NCBI RefSeq assembly: GCF_030272895.1
Contig: NZ_JALRNF010000014.1
Span: forward strand, 62,001-126,000
Direction: 5' to 3'
Origin: Pseudomonas sp. BGr12
GTDB taxonomy: Bacteria; Pseudomonadota; Gammaproteobacteria; Pseudomonadales; Pseudomonadaceae
Length of the DNA stretch: 64,000 bases
Positions 46,409 through 52,394 of the stretch are shown piece by piece. Both the position numbers and the translations under genes were made by a program. The first letter of the stretch is position 1. Every line of letters begins with the position of its first letter. Below the pieces are notes generated by a model that was not told the DNA's origin, did no database searches, and was given only the letters and a program-made list of their open reading frames with translations.

Positions 46409-47083
46409 ATGCAGCCCTACGCTATTGCCCCCTCCATTCTTTCTGCCGACTTCGCCCGCCTGGGCGAGGAAGTCGATAACGTGCTGGCCGCAGGTGCCGA
46501 CATCGTTCACTTCGACGTCATGGACAACCACTACGTGCCGAACCTGACCATCGGCCCGATGGTCTGCACCGCCCTGCGCAAGTACGGCATCACCGCGCCG
46601 ATCGACGTGCACCTGATGGTCAGCCCGGTCGATCGCATCATCGGCGACTTCATCGAAGCCGGCGCCAGCTACATCACCTTCCACCCGGAAGCCAGCCTGC
46701 ACATCGATCGTTCGCTGCAGTTGATTCGCGACGGCGGCTGCAAGGCCGGCCTGGTGTTCAACCCGGCCACCCCGCTCGACACCCTCAAGTACGTGATGGA
46801 CAAGGTCGACATGATCCTGTTGATGAGCGTCAACCCGGGCTTCGGCGGCCAGAAGTTCATCCCCGCCACCCTCGACAAGCTGCGTGAAGCCCGTGCGCTG
46901 ATCGATGCCAGCGGTCGCGATATCCGCCTGGAAATCGACGGTGGCGTGAATGTGAACAACATTCGCGAGATCGCCGCGGCCGGTGCTGACACCTTCGTTG
47001 CAGGCTCGGCGATCTTCAACGCCCCGAACTACCAGGAAGTCATCGCCAAGATGCATGCCGAACTGGCCCTGGCCCGCCCATGA
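46409..47083 (+). CDS. rpe: Ribulose-phosphate 3-epimerase
   Basis: Rpe interconverts ribulose 5-phosphate and xylulose 5-phosphate. The 224-residue TIM barrel has [15 protein letters not shown] near the N-terminus, [12 protein letters not shown] with metal ligands, HLMV and the late EIDGGVN. The ATG at 46409 is chosen over upstream in-frame codons because the family begins [11 protein letters not shown] or similar. A TACAAT box at 46372-46377 may be its -10. Overlaps gph by four bases. Confidence 0.97.
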
Positions 47084-47898
47084 GTGGCTTCGAGCAGCTG
47101 TTTCCCGGCGCATTGCCCAGGCTGGTGATGTTCGATCTGGACGGTACCCTGATCGACTCGGTACCGGACCTGGCGGCGGCGGTGGATCGCATGCTGCTCG
47201 AAATGGGGCGCAAGCCCGCAGGCCTTGAGGCGGTACGCCACTGGGTCGGCAATGGGGCTCCGGTGCTGGTGCGCCGGGCCCTGGCCGGCGGCCTGGACCA
47301 TGCTTCAGTCGATGACGACGAAGCGGAACAGGGCCTTGAACTGTTCATGCAGGCCTATGCCGAGAGCCATGAACTGACCGTGGTCTACCCCGGTGTGCGC
47401 GACACCCTCAAGTGGCTGCACAAGCAGGGCGTGGAAATGGCCCTGATCACCAACAAGCCGGAACGCTTCGTTGGCCCCTTGCTCGACCAGATGAAGATCG
47501 GTCGTTACTTTCGCTGGATCATCGGCGGCGATACCTTGCCGCAGAAGAAACCCGACCCGGCAGCCCTGCTGTTCGTGATGAAAATGGCCAACGTGCCGGC
47601 CGAACAGGCCCTGTTCGTTGGCGACTCGCGCAGCGATGTACTGGCCGCCAAGGCCGCTGGAGTCAAATGCGTGGGCCTCACCTATGGCTACAACCACGGG
47701 CGACCGATCAGCGAGGAAGCCCCGTGCCTGGTAATCGACGACCTGCGTGCACTGTTGCCAGGTTGCTTAGAACCGGCCACTGGGATAACGTTGACGGACG
47801 TTAATCCCCCCTCAGATCGAGATTCCATCGTGGCGGTATCCGGCAAACTCTGGATGAAAGTCATCAAGGCCCTGGCCCGCTGGCGTTGGCGCGCCTGA
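47080..47898 (+). CDS. gph: Phosphoglycolate phosphatase with trp leader peptide as its C-terminus
   Basis: Gph removes phosphate from 2-phosphoglycolate, a by-product of DNA repair. The HAD core has [11 protein letters not shown] (about residues 18-28), the lysine loop [11 protein letters not shown] and [14 protein letters not shown]. The core ends about residue 225; the remaining roughly 45 residues are atypical and end [13 protein letters not shown], the tryptophan leader peptide that precedes trpE. gph and the leader are in one frame and share the stop at 47896-47898. At 272 residues the protein is longer than common Gph proteins (about 220-250). Confidence 0.93.
47854..47898 (+). CDS. 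trpE leader peptide (trpL), in frame with gph
   Basis: A 14-residue peptide [14 protein letters not shown] with two near-adjacent Trp codons (TGG CGT TGG), lying in frame at the end of gph. An alternative in-frame GTG start is at 47830. No strong ribosome site precedes either start, so gph-translating ribosomes may be the main readers. Trp-dependent attenuation of trpE and trpGDC is established in P. putida; the same core peptide occurs before trpG in this window. Confidence 0.8.
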   Translation: MKVIKALARWRWRA

Positions 47899-47907
47899 CG
47901 TTGGTCT

Positions 47908-47930
47908 GCCGGCCGTTGCCGGCCCGTTTG
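47908..47930 (+). terminator. Attenuator hairpin upstream of trpE
   Basis: Stem GCCGGC / GCCGGC with loop CGTT (47908-47923), ten bases after the leader stop, followed by CCGTTTG. The T-tract is short, so it may need the competing leader structure for control. The trpE start is 45 bases further on, with GAGG upstream. Confidence 0.65.
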
Positions 47931-47967
47931 CCTGCCTGACCCCATTGCTGCTTGCCACGAGGCTATC

Positions 47968-49449
47968 ATGACCCGCGAAGAATTCCTGCGCCTGGCCGCT
48001 GCCGGCTACAACCGCATTCCCCTGGCCTGCGAAACCCTGGCCGACTTCGACACGCCGTTGTCGATCTACCTGAAACTGGCTGACCAACCCAACTCCTACC
48101 TGCTCGAATCGGTGCAGGGCGGCGAGAAGTGGGGGCGTTACTCGATCATCGGTCTGCCGTGCCGCACCGTGATGCGGGTGCATGATCACCAGGTGCGGAT
48201 CACCCACGACGGTGAAGAGATCGAAACCCACGAGGTCGAAGACCCGCTGGCTTTCGTCGAAAGCTTCAAGGACCGCTACAAGGTGCCGACCATCGCCGGC
48301 CTGCCGCGCTTCAACGGTGGTCTGGTCGGTTACTTCGGCTATGACTGCGTGCGCTATGTCGAGCGCCGTCTGGGCAAGTGCCCGAACCCCGATCCATTGG
48401 GCGTACCGGACATCCTGCTGATGGTTTCCGATGCCGTGGTGGTGTTCGACAACCTGGCGGGCAAGATGCACGCGATCGTGCTGGTCGACCCTGCCCGGGA
48501 GCAGGCCTACGAAAACGGCCTGGCGCGCCTGGAAGCACTGCTGGAGCAACTGCGCCAGCCGATCACCCCGCGTCGTGGCCTGGAACTGGGCGGCCCGCCC
48601 GCTGCCGAGCCGGCCTTCCGTTCCAGTTTTACCCAGAGCGACTACGAGCGCGCGGTCGATACCATCAAGGAGTACATCCTGGCCGGTGACTGCATGCAGG
48701 TAGTGCCGTCCCAGCGCATGTCCATCGACTTCAAGGCCGCGCCCATCGACCTGTACCGGGCGCTGCGCTGCTTCAACCCGACGCCGTACATGTACTTCTT
48801 CAACTTCGGCGACTTCCATGTGGTCGGCAGCTCGCCGGAAGTGCTGGTGCGCGTCGAAGACAACCTGGTCACCGTCCGCCCGATCGCCGGTACCCGGCCA
48901 CGGGGCGCCACCGAGGAAGCGGATCGGGCGCTGGAAGAGGACCTGCTGTCGGACGACAAGGAAATCGCCGAGCACCTGATGCTGATCGACCTGGGTCGCA
49001 ACGACACCGGGCGGGTATCGGAGACAGGCTCGGTCAAGGTCACCGAGAAAATGGTGATCGAGCGTTATTCCAACGTCATGCACATCGTCTCCAACGTCAC
49101 CGGCGAGTTGAAGCAGGGCCTCAGTGCCATGGATGCACTGCGTGCCATCCTGCCGGCCGGGACCTTGTCCGGGGCGCCGAAGATCCGCGCCATGGAAATC
49201 ATCGACGAACTGGAGCCGGTCAAGCGCGGGGTCTACGGCGGGGCCGTCGGTTACTTCGCCTGGAACGGCAACATGGACACCGCGATTGCCATTCGTACCG
49301 CGGTGATCAAGGACGGTGAACTGCATGTGCAGGCGGGTGGCGGCATCGTTGCCGACTCGGTGCCGGCCCTGGAATGGGAAGAAACCATCAACAAGCGCCG
49401 GGCCATGTTCCGCGCGGTGGCGCTGGCGGAACAGACGCCACGCAGTTGA
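47968..49449 (+). CDS. trpE: Anthranilate synthase component I
   Basis: TrpE makes anthranilate from chorismate using ammonia from TrpG. The 493-residue protein has the feedback-site segment [15 protein letters not shown] near residue 45, and the chorismate-binding core with [24 protein letters not shown] and [11 protein letters not shown]. It is separated from trpGDC by estA and has its own attenuated leader. A bidirectional terminator follows. Confidence 0.97.
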
Positions 49450-49491: not shown

Positions 49492-51414
49492 TCAGAAGTC
49501 CAGGCTGACGGCCAGGTTGATCCCCTGTTGGGTCAGCTCATCGCTCTTGCGCCAGTTGTAGCTGCCGCGCAGGGCCAGCCCCGGCGCCAGGGTCTGGCTG
49601 ATACCGAGCGTTGCCCGGTCCATGTTGCTCTGCGGTGTGTAGCCGGTCAGGGTGAAGTCATTGCCCGGCAGGCTGTTGAGATGAATGCCCAGGTCCTGGC
49701 GATCGTCCTCGAACTCGTGTTCGTGAGCGAGCTCGGCAAACAGCAGCGTGGCTGGCGCCGCCTGGTACTTGCCTTGCAATCCCACACCCAGGCGTCGCGA
49801 CTCGCGATCCTGGTCGTCGAAGCTCAGCGCGGTGGCGCGGGTGCCTTTCTCGGCATAGCCATCGACTTCCACCCGTGCATAGTCGGCGCTGACGAAGGGT
49901 GACAGGCTCCATTCGCTGCCAGGGGCGGCCAGGTCATAACCCAGGCGCGCGGCAAAGGCCCAGAGCTCGCCATTGGTATCGCCCTTTTCAGTGCGATCGT
50001 TGACGCCCAGGGCGAAGGCTCGCTTCAGGTCGCTGTAATCCAGGTGGCCGCCGGTCAGGGTGGCGTCGGCCCACCAGCGGTCCTGCTGGAACTGGGCGAA
50101 GGCGGTTGCCAGGTAACTGTCGAGCTTGTAGTCGGAGTCCTGCTCGCCCGCTTCCAGCTTCTGTTGATAGGCGCCGACCGCGACGCCCAGGCGCCAGGCG
50201 GCATCCAGGCGATAACTGCCGCCCAGGGTCAGGTTGTAGCCGTGGCCGTCAGCGCTGGCCGAGCTGCGCTGGCTGTCGATATCCAGGTCCTGTCCACCGG
50301 CGGCGACAATGGCCTGCCACTGGCCAACCGCTTGCCACTTGCCTTGCCACTGGTTGCGCAGTTCATCCTGGTGGGCGCGCAGGCTGGCGTGGGCCATTTC
50401 CGGAAGCAACGTCAGTTCCCAGGGGGCGGAGAGAATTGAAAAGGCGTAGTCCGCAATCAGATCCTGGCCCGCGCTGGTGGGGTGAACCCCGTCATTGAAC
50501 AGCAGCTTGCTTGGGTCCGGGGTGGCGCTGTTGATGCCATACAGCGGGTTTTCCCGGCAGCCATTGCCACTGAAGCAGGTGCCGACCAGGTTCTGCCCGC
50601 TGGCCAGGCCGAACTGTTCCGGGTTGGCCAGGCTTTCCTGGAGCAGCAGGGGCACGTTCAGGGGGATGACCTGTGCATCGATTTGCGCCAGCTGGCCGAT
50701 CAGTTGCTGGTTGAACAGGCTGCTCAACTGCGAGGCCGCGCCTTGCTGGGGCGTGCCGCTGATCGCCGGGGTCAGGCCCAGGTCGGGCAGCAGCCAGACC
50801 ATGATGTAGTTGGCGCCCGCCTGCTGCAGGGCCTGGGCGCTGGCGGCCAGGCGATTTGCTGCCGCCGCTGCCGTTGCCGGGCTGGTGATACGGCCCTGGA
50901 GGAAATCGTTGCCGCCGCCGGTCAGGTAGTAGAGGGCATTGGGATCGGCACGCAGGCCACCGGCCAGGTAGCCCGGGCGTTCCCGCAGCACAGTCCCGGC
51001 GCCGGGATTACCCGGGGGTATCACCACATCGGAGGTGCCGGTGATCGAGTCGAGGATCTGGTCGGTGCGATAACCACCGACTGCCCAGTTGTTGCCGTCG
51101 GGCAAGCCCAGTGCGGCATTGACCGGGGAGGTGGAGGCGCCCAGTTCTGTCGGTGAGATCCCCAGCTGGGTGCCCAGCAGCATGGGCGACACGGCGGCGA
51201 ACGGTTCTCCATTGCCGTAGCTCGGGCCGACCCGATTGGTGAAGCGCTGCACGGAGCCTGCCGGGCCATTGCTGTCGGGGAACTGGCCGGCATCGCTGAG
51301 GCTGTCGCCAAACACGATCAGGGTGGAGTAGGGGGAAGGGCTGGCAATGGCACTGGAGCAGGCCAGGGCCAGCAGGGAAAAAGCACAGGGTAATAGCGAA
51401 CGCGCTTTCAACAT
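49492..51414 (-). CDS. estA: GDSL-family autotransporter esterase EstA
   Basis: A 640-residue outer-membrane lipase/esterase of the EstA/EstP type. Signal peptide (about 1-25), GDSL passenger with Ser38 in [11 protein letters not shown] and the catalytic DGVHPT block near residue 315, then a 12-strand-type autotransporter barrel (about 360-640) ending with phenylalanine (AVSLDF). EstA of P. aeruginosa is needed for rhamnolipid production and motility. The start at 51414 has AAGGA seven bases upstream. It lies between trpE and trpGDC on the opposite strand. Confidence 0.93.
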
Positions 51415-51558
51415 CGCAAGATCCTTTTTCGTTGTTGTTATCGGATGACGCCCAGGGACGTTAGCAAAGCATTGCGCCGGTCTTCCATCGATAAAGCGTT
51501 TCGGCATGCCTCCGTCATATTGCGCGTACCGCTGCGGTAGGCTACTGTGCGGGAACGT

Positions 51559-51645
51559 ATGAACGAGACCTACCCCGTGTTGATCGTCAGCAAACTCTTG
51601 ATGCGCGTTATCAAGGCCCACGCCCGTTGGCGTTGGCGCGCCTGA
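51559..51645 (+). CDS. trpGDC leader peptide
   Basis: A 28-residue frame from ATG 51559 (GGGAAC upstream) or 14 residues from ATG 51601, [14 protein letters not shown], with TGG CGT TGG. The last part is nearly identical to the trpE leader at both protein and DNA level, so the two leaders are duplicates. Tryptophan-dependent attenuation of trpGDC is established in P. putida. The remainder of the 386-base estA-trpG gap shows no other gene. Confidence 0.82.
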
Positions 51646-51800: not shown

Positions 51801-52394
51801 ATGTTACTGATGATCGACAACTACGACTCCTTCACCTACAACGTCGTGCAGTACCTCGGCGAGCTGGGTGCAGAGGTCAAGGTCATTCGCAATGACGAAC
51901 TGACCATCGCCCAGATCGAAGCCCTGAACCCCGAGCGCATCGTCGTTTCTCCCGGCCCTTGCACCCCGACCGAAGCCGGCGTGTCGCTGGAGGCCATCCT
52001 GCATTTCGCCGGCAAGCTGCCGATCCTGGGCGTCTGCCTGGGCCACCAGTCCATCGGCCAGGCGTTCGGTGGCGATGTGGTGCGCGCCCGCCAGGTGATG
52101 CACGGCAAGACCAGCCCGGTGTTCCACAAGGACCAGGGTGTATTCGCCGGCCTCAACAACCCGCTGACCGTCACCCGCTATCACTCGCTGGTGGTCAAGC
52201 GCGAAACCTTGCCCGACTGCCTGGAGCTGACCGCCTGGACCGCCTTCGAAGACGGTTCGGTGGACGAGATCATGGGCCTGCGCCACAAGACCCTGAACAT
52301 CGAAGGGGTACAGTTCCACCCCGAGTCGATCCTCACCGAACAGGGCCACGAGCTGTTCGCCAACTTCCTCAAGCAGACCGGCGGCCGCCGCTAA
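51801..52394 (+). CDS. trpG: Anthranilate synthase component II (glutamine amidotransferase)
   Basis: TrpG supplies ammonia from glutamine to TrpE. The 197-residue class I amidotransferase has the oxyanion loop SPGPCTP, the nucleophile in GVCLGHQ (Cys79) and the His-Glu pair in [14 protein letters not shown] lies upstream. Nine bases separate it from trpD. The related PabA role in folate synthesis is also possible, since a single TrpG may serve both. Confidence 0.97.

Follow-up and report, generated by a model that had tools for sequence, protein, structure and literature searches.

In Escherichia coli, trpE is preceded by trpL, which has its own promoter and encodes a 14-residue peptide with Trp codons near its end, followed by a hairpin. 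Another E. coli attenuator, that of rph-pyrE, senses UTP through transcription-translation coupling, with the whole upstream gene acting as the leader. In Pseudomonas putida, trpE and trpGDC are reportedly regulated by attenuation, as the title of a 2001 report by Olekhnovich and Gussin (J Bacteriol 183:3256) has it. The same genes occur in the window (the whole 64,000-nt stretch of Pseudomonas sp. BGr12 DNA that was analyzed, to which all coordinates refer; features lie on its + strand unless stated otherwise), and here a leader with Trp codons stands before each of them. The trpE leader resembles E. coli trpL in that a 14-residue peptide with late Trp codons precedes trpE and a hairpin comes next. 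It differs in that trpL does not overlap an upstream gene, whereas this leader overlaps gph, and in that its hairpin lacks a good U run. The likeness to rph-pyrE lies in the translation of a full upstream gene as an attenuator leader, which the frame and layout of this locus would permit, and the difference is that rph-pyrE senses UTP by coupling rather than an amino acid through codons. Among the titles listed by literature searches on the gph-leader fusion, none describes it.

Our analysis suggests, with a probability of roughly 70%, that trpE is governed by an attenuator that has its own promoter and start codon within the 3' end of gph and that ribosomes translating gph could also enter. 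We infer this promoter and a GTG start because both are conserved among relatives. If this is true, one attenuator would be reachable by two ribosome streams.

Reading frame shared by Gph and the trpE leader

The gene upstream of gph spans 46409..47083 (from ORF and sequence, the ATG at 46409 being picked by eye) and is putatively rpe, encoding ribulose-phosphate 3-epimerase, going by its position and the name given by an earlier reader. It overlaps gph by 4 nt (ATGA). The phosphoglycolate phosphatase frame gph, delimited by its ORF and family matches, runs from 47080 to 47898 and encodes 272 amino acids including the leader; according to the ORF listing and the sequence, its stop is also that of the Trp-rich trpE leader. 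The distance from this stop to the start of trpE (anthranilate synthase component I, 47968..49449, TIGR00564 above cut-off) is 69 nt. Gph belongs to NCBIfam family NF009698 (PRK13223), given a match over residues 1-272 with 553.3 bits (cut-off 466), and also matches TIGR01449 at residues 16-226 (219.6 bits, cut-off 180) and Pfam PF13242 at residues 157-224. Since the HAD matches stop at about residue 226, the tail comprises about 46 residues. An earlier note on this DNA had claimed a gph frame that stays open through the trpE leader to a shared stop and extends about 45 residues past the HAD core, and both claims are borne out.

To place this frame among relatives, 261 distinct loci were compared, comprising the window, 80 loci from named genomes and 180 from the same family and order. 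The leader core, or a recognizable form of it, was present in 232 of the 261 loci, fused to gph in 163 and unfused in 69; of the 29 loci without it, 20 were outgroups from the order and 9 belonged to the family. The comparison of Gph C-termini, which the earlier note had proposed as a check on conservation, gave fusion in all 80 of the nearest named loci (the best 80 of 509, found with one search pattern that came from the tail, and so a biased sample) and in 163 of the 232 leader-bearing loci. In the 69 unfused loci, all outside the fused clade or at its base, the leader does not form part of gph, and all three frames occur among these leaders. The note had held that its reading would be refuted by close relatives in which Gph stops short of residue 230 and the leader is off-frame; such cases were found among relatives outside the fused clade, but not among the 80 nearest loci from named genomes. 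A family-wide search gave Gph matches in 395 of 398 family genomes; among the matches listed, every Gph extends without a stop to residue 271 or 272, and in two sets of 80 genomes, mainly outside those listed, 17 and 15 were stop-free to residue 272. These comparisons show that the fused frame is real and more than a chance feature of one locus, that it is common across core Pseudomonas, and that it has mostly stayed in frame.

Several loci depart from the common layout. Of the nine family members that lack the leader at gph, two (L130 and L145) belong to genomes in which leader and trpE sit together some 2 kb away from gph (L282 and L289), so that the leader stays with trpE, and in two others (L155 and L161, genus g7) a divergent Trp leader ending in VWHRWRCCA precedes trpE. 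In the family member L132 no leader separates the two genes, and gph (261 aa) shares about 4 nt with trpE. Eight order outgroups (L170, L174, L175, L177, L178, L182, L183 and L185) have other Trp-rich peptides between gph and trpE (LRWRWRW, TRWWRWRTG, NERWRWRA), which are separate from gph.

Within the genus listed for the genome itself, gph is only 72-77% identical to that of the window (74% in one genome of the "same species"), and it is 93-95% identical in P. vranovensis and P. putida-type strains. The assembly may carry a wrong taxonomic label.

Leader start, promoter-like site and candidate attenuator hairpin

An all-frame motif scan delimited a 22-aa leader ORF starting at a GTG (47830..47898), with Trp codons at 47851, 47881 and 47887. 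It thus has what a ribosome-mediated Trp attenuator calls for, a cluster of Trp codons in a short ORF immediately upstream of a trp biosynthesis gene. The earlier note had described these codons as tandem; they are present, but the last two read TGG-CGT-TGG (47881-47883 and 47887-47889), and the third TGG lies at 47851-47853. Comparison of loci delimited a conserved core with its stop at 47854..47898, in which RWRWR is kept in 231 of 232 leader loci.

The note was right that no good Shine-Dalgarno sequence stands before the ATG at 47854, as judged by eye, but the leader probably starts instead at GTG 47830. Seven nt upstream of this GTG, the alignment of loci shows a weak Shine-Dalgarno-like GAGA (47819..47822), where other loci have GGAAA. 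In the all-frame scan, this GAGA...GTG box lies 21-54 nt before the core at eight different spacings, all of them multiples of 3 (232 of 232 loci, and 172 of 172 in the first round). Training used 53 loci that have the 24-nt spacing, and the motif weights the GTG itself, so the presence of GTG in all 232 loci holds partly by construction and the spacing is the real test. From the gph stop to the GTG, the 69 unfused loci are distributed 15/22/32 across the three frames. The ATG at 47854 is missing in 7 of 232 leaders, which rules it out as the sole start. Between GTG and core there is little codon-position bias (third/first-two ratio 1.32 in fused and 1.45 in unfused loci), so this stretch by itself does not look translated. 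The +1 frame of the tail (about 47813-47856) often reads SWWSPANSG followed by a stop in relatives, perhaps as a side effect of the GTGGTGG box.

Upstream of the GTG, alignment of unfused loci yielded a promoter-like pattern, TTGnnn-17-TAnnnT, represented in the window by a -35-like TTGCTT (47763..47768) and a -10-like TAACGT (47786..47791), which together form a putative trpE promoter. Of 232 loci, 223 (163/163 fused and 60/69 unfused, leaving 9 unfused loci without it) carry this pair at 26-62 nt upstream of the GTG, and of 1160 random gph-core windows 1 does; these controls are coding sequence, and the loci compared are related. The usual -10 is not visible in L282 and L289. From this site, the trpE transcript would start near 47798. 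A sigma-70 scan covering 46900-48300 called no promoter. The TTGACG at 47791-47796, proposed in the note as a -35, is in place, but it is not conserved as a promoter element (the base after TTG varies in relatives, as in TTGGC, TTGCC and others) and it overlaps the last base of TAACGT; we rejected it.

Both the GTG box and the promoter-like site are conserved in fused and unfused relatives alike, which supports the view that the leader is a conserved unit, found with and without the fusion. They also bear on the central proposal of the earlier note, namely that translation of Gph is the main or only Trp sensor, with trpE transcribed from rpe-gph and a leader that lacks a start of its own. Gph ribosomes could indeed read the Trp codons in frame, but their role as main or sole sensor is improbable. 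An open frame throughout the fused clade save for one frameshift state, the 4-nt overlap of rpe with gph, the lack of any terminator-like site found on the + strand before trpE, and the weak Shine-Dalgarno sequence and scant codon bias from GTG to core would all fit that proposal. Against it stand the promoter-like site in every one of the fused loci, the constant frame of the GTG box, and the trpG leader and unfused relatives, which do without the fusion. The tail itself also argues against it: among 119 fused loci (2986 non-independent pairs), the part occupied by the promoter differs less (0.19/0.13/0.18 by codon position, with no position bias) than the tail after the -10 (0.45/0.34/0.38).

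In the attenuator that we favor, with its own promoter and start, trpE would be transcribed mainly from that promoter and the leader translated from the GTG. Transcripts from rpe-gph would bring Gph ribosomes to the same Trp codons in frame, and the attenuator would read charged tRNA-Trp from either source of ribosomes. A simple scan of 46900-48300 found no terminator-like site on the + strand and two on the - strand; with the frame kept and no such + strand site found, Gph ribosomes on read-through transcripts would meet the Trp codons. Reading the leader through Gph is probably only a second way in.

The attenuator candidate after the leader is a hairpin, GCCGGC-CGTT-GCCGGC (47908..47923), which begins 12 nt downstream of the first base of the leader stop codon and has a very short U run. 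Of 220 loci, 195 place the 5' arm at either +12 or +13, and 45 different stems occur, although the stems were found locus by locus and the median score is reached by about 10% of shuffled sequences. In an alignment of 77 loci the hairpin arms fall into two registers by eye, and RNAalifold on these loci gave weak structure only. Single folds are also weak (z-scores -1.04 and -0.88), and Rfam gave no family at the leader site at gathering score. A TTT follows the hairpin within 10 nt in 170 of 220 loci and is absent from the others, for example from the 14 with CCGUCCGC. Base pairs can form between the Trp codons and the hairpin region, but a stalled ribosome would then favor the hairpin, opposite to the expected direction. 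The classical 1:2 / 2:3 arrangement of an attenuator was not found in folds of the leader region. At the level of a guess, a Rho-dependent switch would suit the poor U run.

Origin of the fusion and evolution of the Gph tail

In 29 of the 69 unfused loci, the gph stop falls within the promoter-like site, as the TGA of TTGATT in 13 and as the TAG opening the -10 in 16; in the remainder it lies upstream of the site (27), in the spacer (1) or downstream (3), or the locus lacks the pattern (9). The codon that is this TGA in the 13 unfused relatives is TGC in 163 of 163 fused loci, and in the window it encodes Cys229 (47764..47766) within the -35-like hexamer. A FastTree of the gph core with 229 rows (including 154 fused and 66 unfused) needs two changes of the fused state. 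The branch holding all fused rows (support 90, not starred) contains 154 fused rows, two unfused ones (L106 and L248), and L132, which has no leader. The fusion appears to be derived, and a single origin is the simplest reading of this tree. An ancestor of the core Pseudomonas clade would have lost its gph stop, most simply by TGA changing to TGC at codon 229, after which the gph frame, matching the leader frame by chance, would extend to the leader stop. A promoter element and a stop codon would then share bases, such that one substitution fuses two frames.

At the base of this clade, three loci (L106, L108 and L248) have one off-frame state in common, with a gph stop that begins 4 nt downstream of the first base of the GTG; here the fusion has been lost naturally.

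How the tail has evolved since then bears on why the fusion persists. Downstream of the -10, the fused tail changes as fast as the third positions of the gph core (0.11/0.07/0.38 by codon position), and the matching stretch in 58 unfused pairs is equally flat (0.40/0.46/0.38). Differences in the leader core are nearly confined to third positions. The amino acids of the tail look unconstrained. It is therefore very improbable that the tail is a functional part of Gph whose sequence is kept for that reason: PRK13223 does cover all 272 residues, but the tail has the neutral pattern of a sequence free of codon-position bias, and the leader core is also present outside Gph and in the trpG leader. 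On our favored reading, the 272-residue Gph of PRK13223 would have a regulatory leader as its C-terminus.

The frame itself gives a different picture. In the last 45 nt before the GTG, the gph frame is open in 154 of 154 fused rows, the other two frames in 42 and 110, and the gph frame of unfused rows in 41 of 66. As "fused" is defined by an open frame, the weight of this test rests on the clade having no stop in its tails, and indeed it has none, with one frameshift state (3 loci). Parsimony places 664 substitutions in the tail without a stop, where about 16.6 stop gains would be expected. Simulations were run for two length classes, with 117 and 31 of the 154 fused rows. Runs without any stop numbered 5 of 400 (larger class) and 1 of 400 (second class) in a first simulation, 16 of 600 and 2 of 600 with one base composition, and 211 of 600 and 27 of 600 with per-column base composition, which was learned from the same open sequences and so absorbs any selection. 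For the larger class, simulated stops in the +2 frame outnumbered those observed (18/600 and 7/600), which means that the model overpredicts stops there. The lack of stops depends on the null, being significant under one and weak or not significant under the stricter one.

A second test concerns changes in the length from -10 to GTG. In the fused clade (156 rows including L106 and L248), six are multiples of 3 and two are not, versus five and 26 among 56 unfused rows on about equal tree length (Fisher P 0.003); fused rows are in frame by definition, and this test relies on L106, L108 and L248 being the only losses in the clade. There is moderate evidence that the open frame, and not its amino acids, is what is kept, in which case a reading frame can be under selection while its amino acids are not.

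That the fusion is a harmless accident, with one stop loss, a chance match of frames, a tail kept open by descent and composition, and no role in trpE, seems rather unlikely. The free evolution of the tail amino acids would fit such an accident, as would the frameshift state in L106, L108 and L248 and the per-column null, under which the absence of stops in the larger class is unremarkable (211/600). It accounts less well for the bias of length changes towards multiples of 3, seen inside the fused clade but absent elsewhere (P 0.003), for 664 substitutions without a stop where about 17 were expected, and for the second length class (27/600 and 2/600). A further possibility, which we put forward tentatively and somewhat below even odds, is that the last codons of the enzyme sense Trp for the next operon in parallel to the leader with its own start, and that selection keeps the frame of the tail rather than its amino acids. 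One base of the -35 (TTGATT or TTGCTT) would then toggle between stop and fusion.

Paralogous leader before trpG

A second leader in the window precedes trpG (51801..52373, end approximate, from a TIGR00566 match and tblastn in L271). By sequence comparison, this paralogous leader runs from a GTG over 22 codons (51577..51645), with an in-frame ATG also at 51559. Its GTG lies 24 nt before the core, as in the trpE leader, and it is unfused. A promoter-like TTGCGC-17-TACTGT (51520..51548), read from the sequence and compared with relatives, has the same spacing. In the P. aeruginosa trpGDC operon, early 3' ends are reported near a potential uORF with a GTG start (PMC8297930), and this uORF agrees with the paralogous trpG leader of the window. 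That report concerns trpG, and the one mention of trpE in its text is in the title of the Olekhnovich and Gussin reference.

A query with the trpG leader retrieved 30 loci, 14 of which, that of the window included, have a trpG leader. The GTG is at -24 in 12 of them, four of which (L287, L288, L290 and L291) have no Shine-Dalgarno sequence by the pattern used, and at -21 in two (L281 and L286). Between trpE and trpG, an ORF in the opposite orientation occupies 49492-51621.
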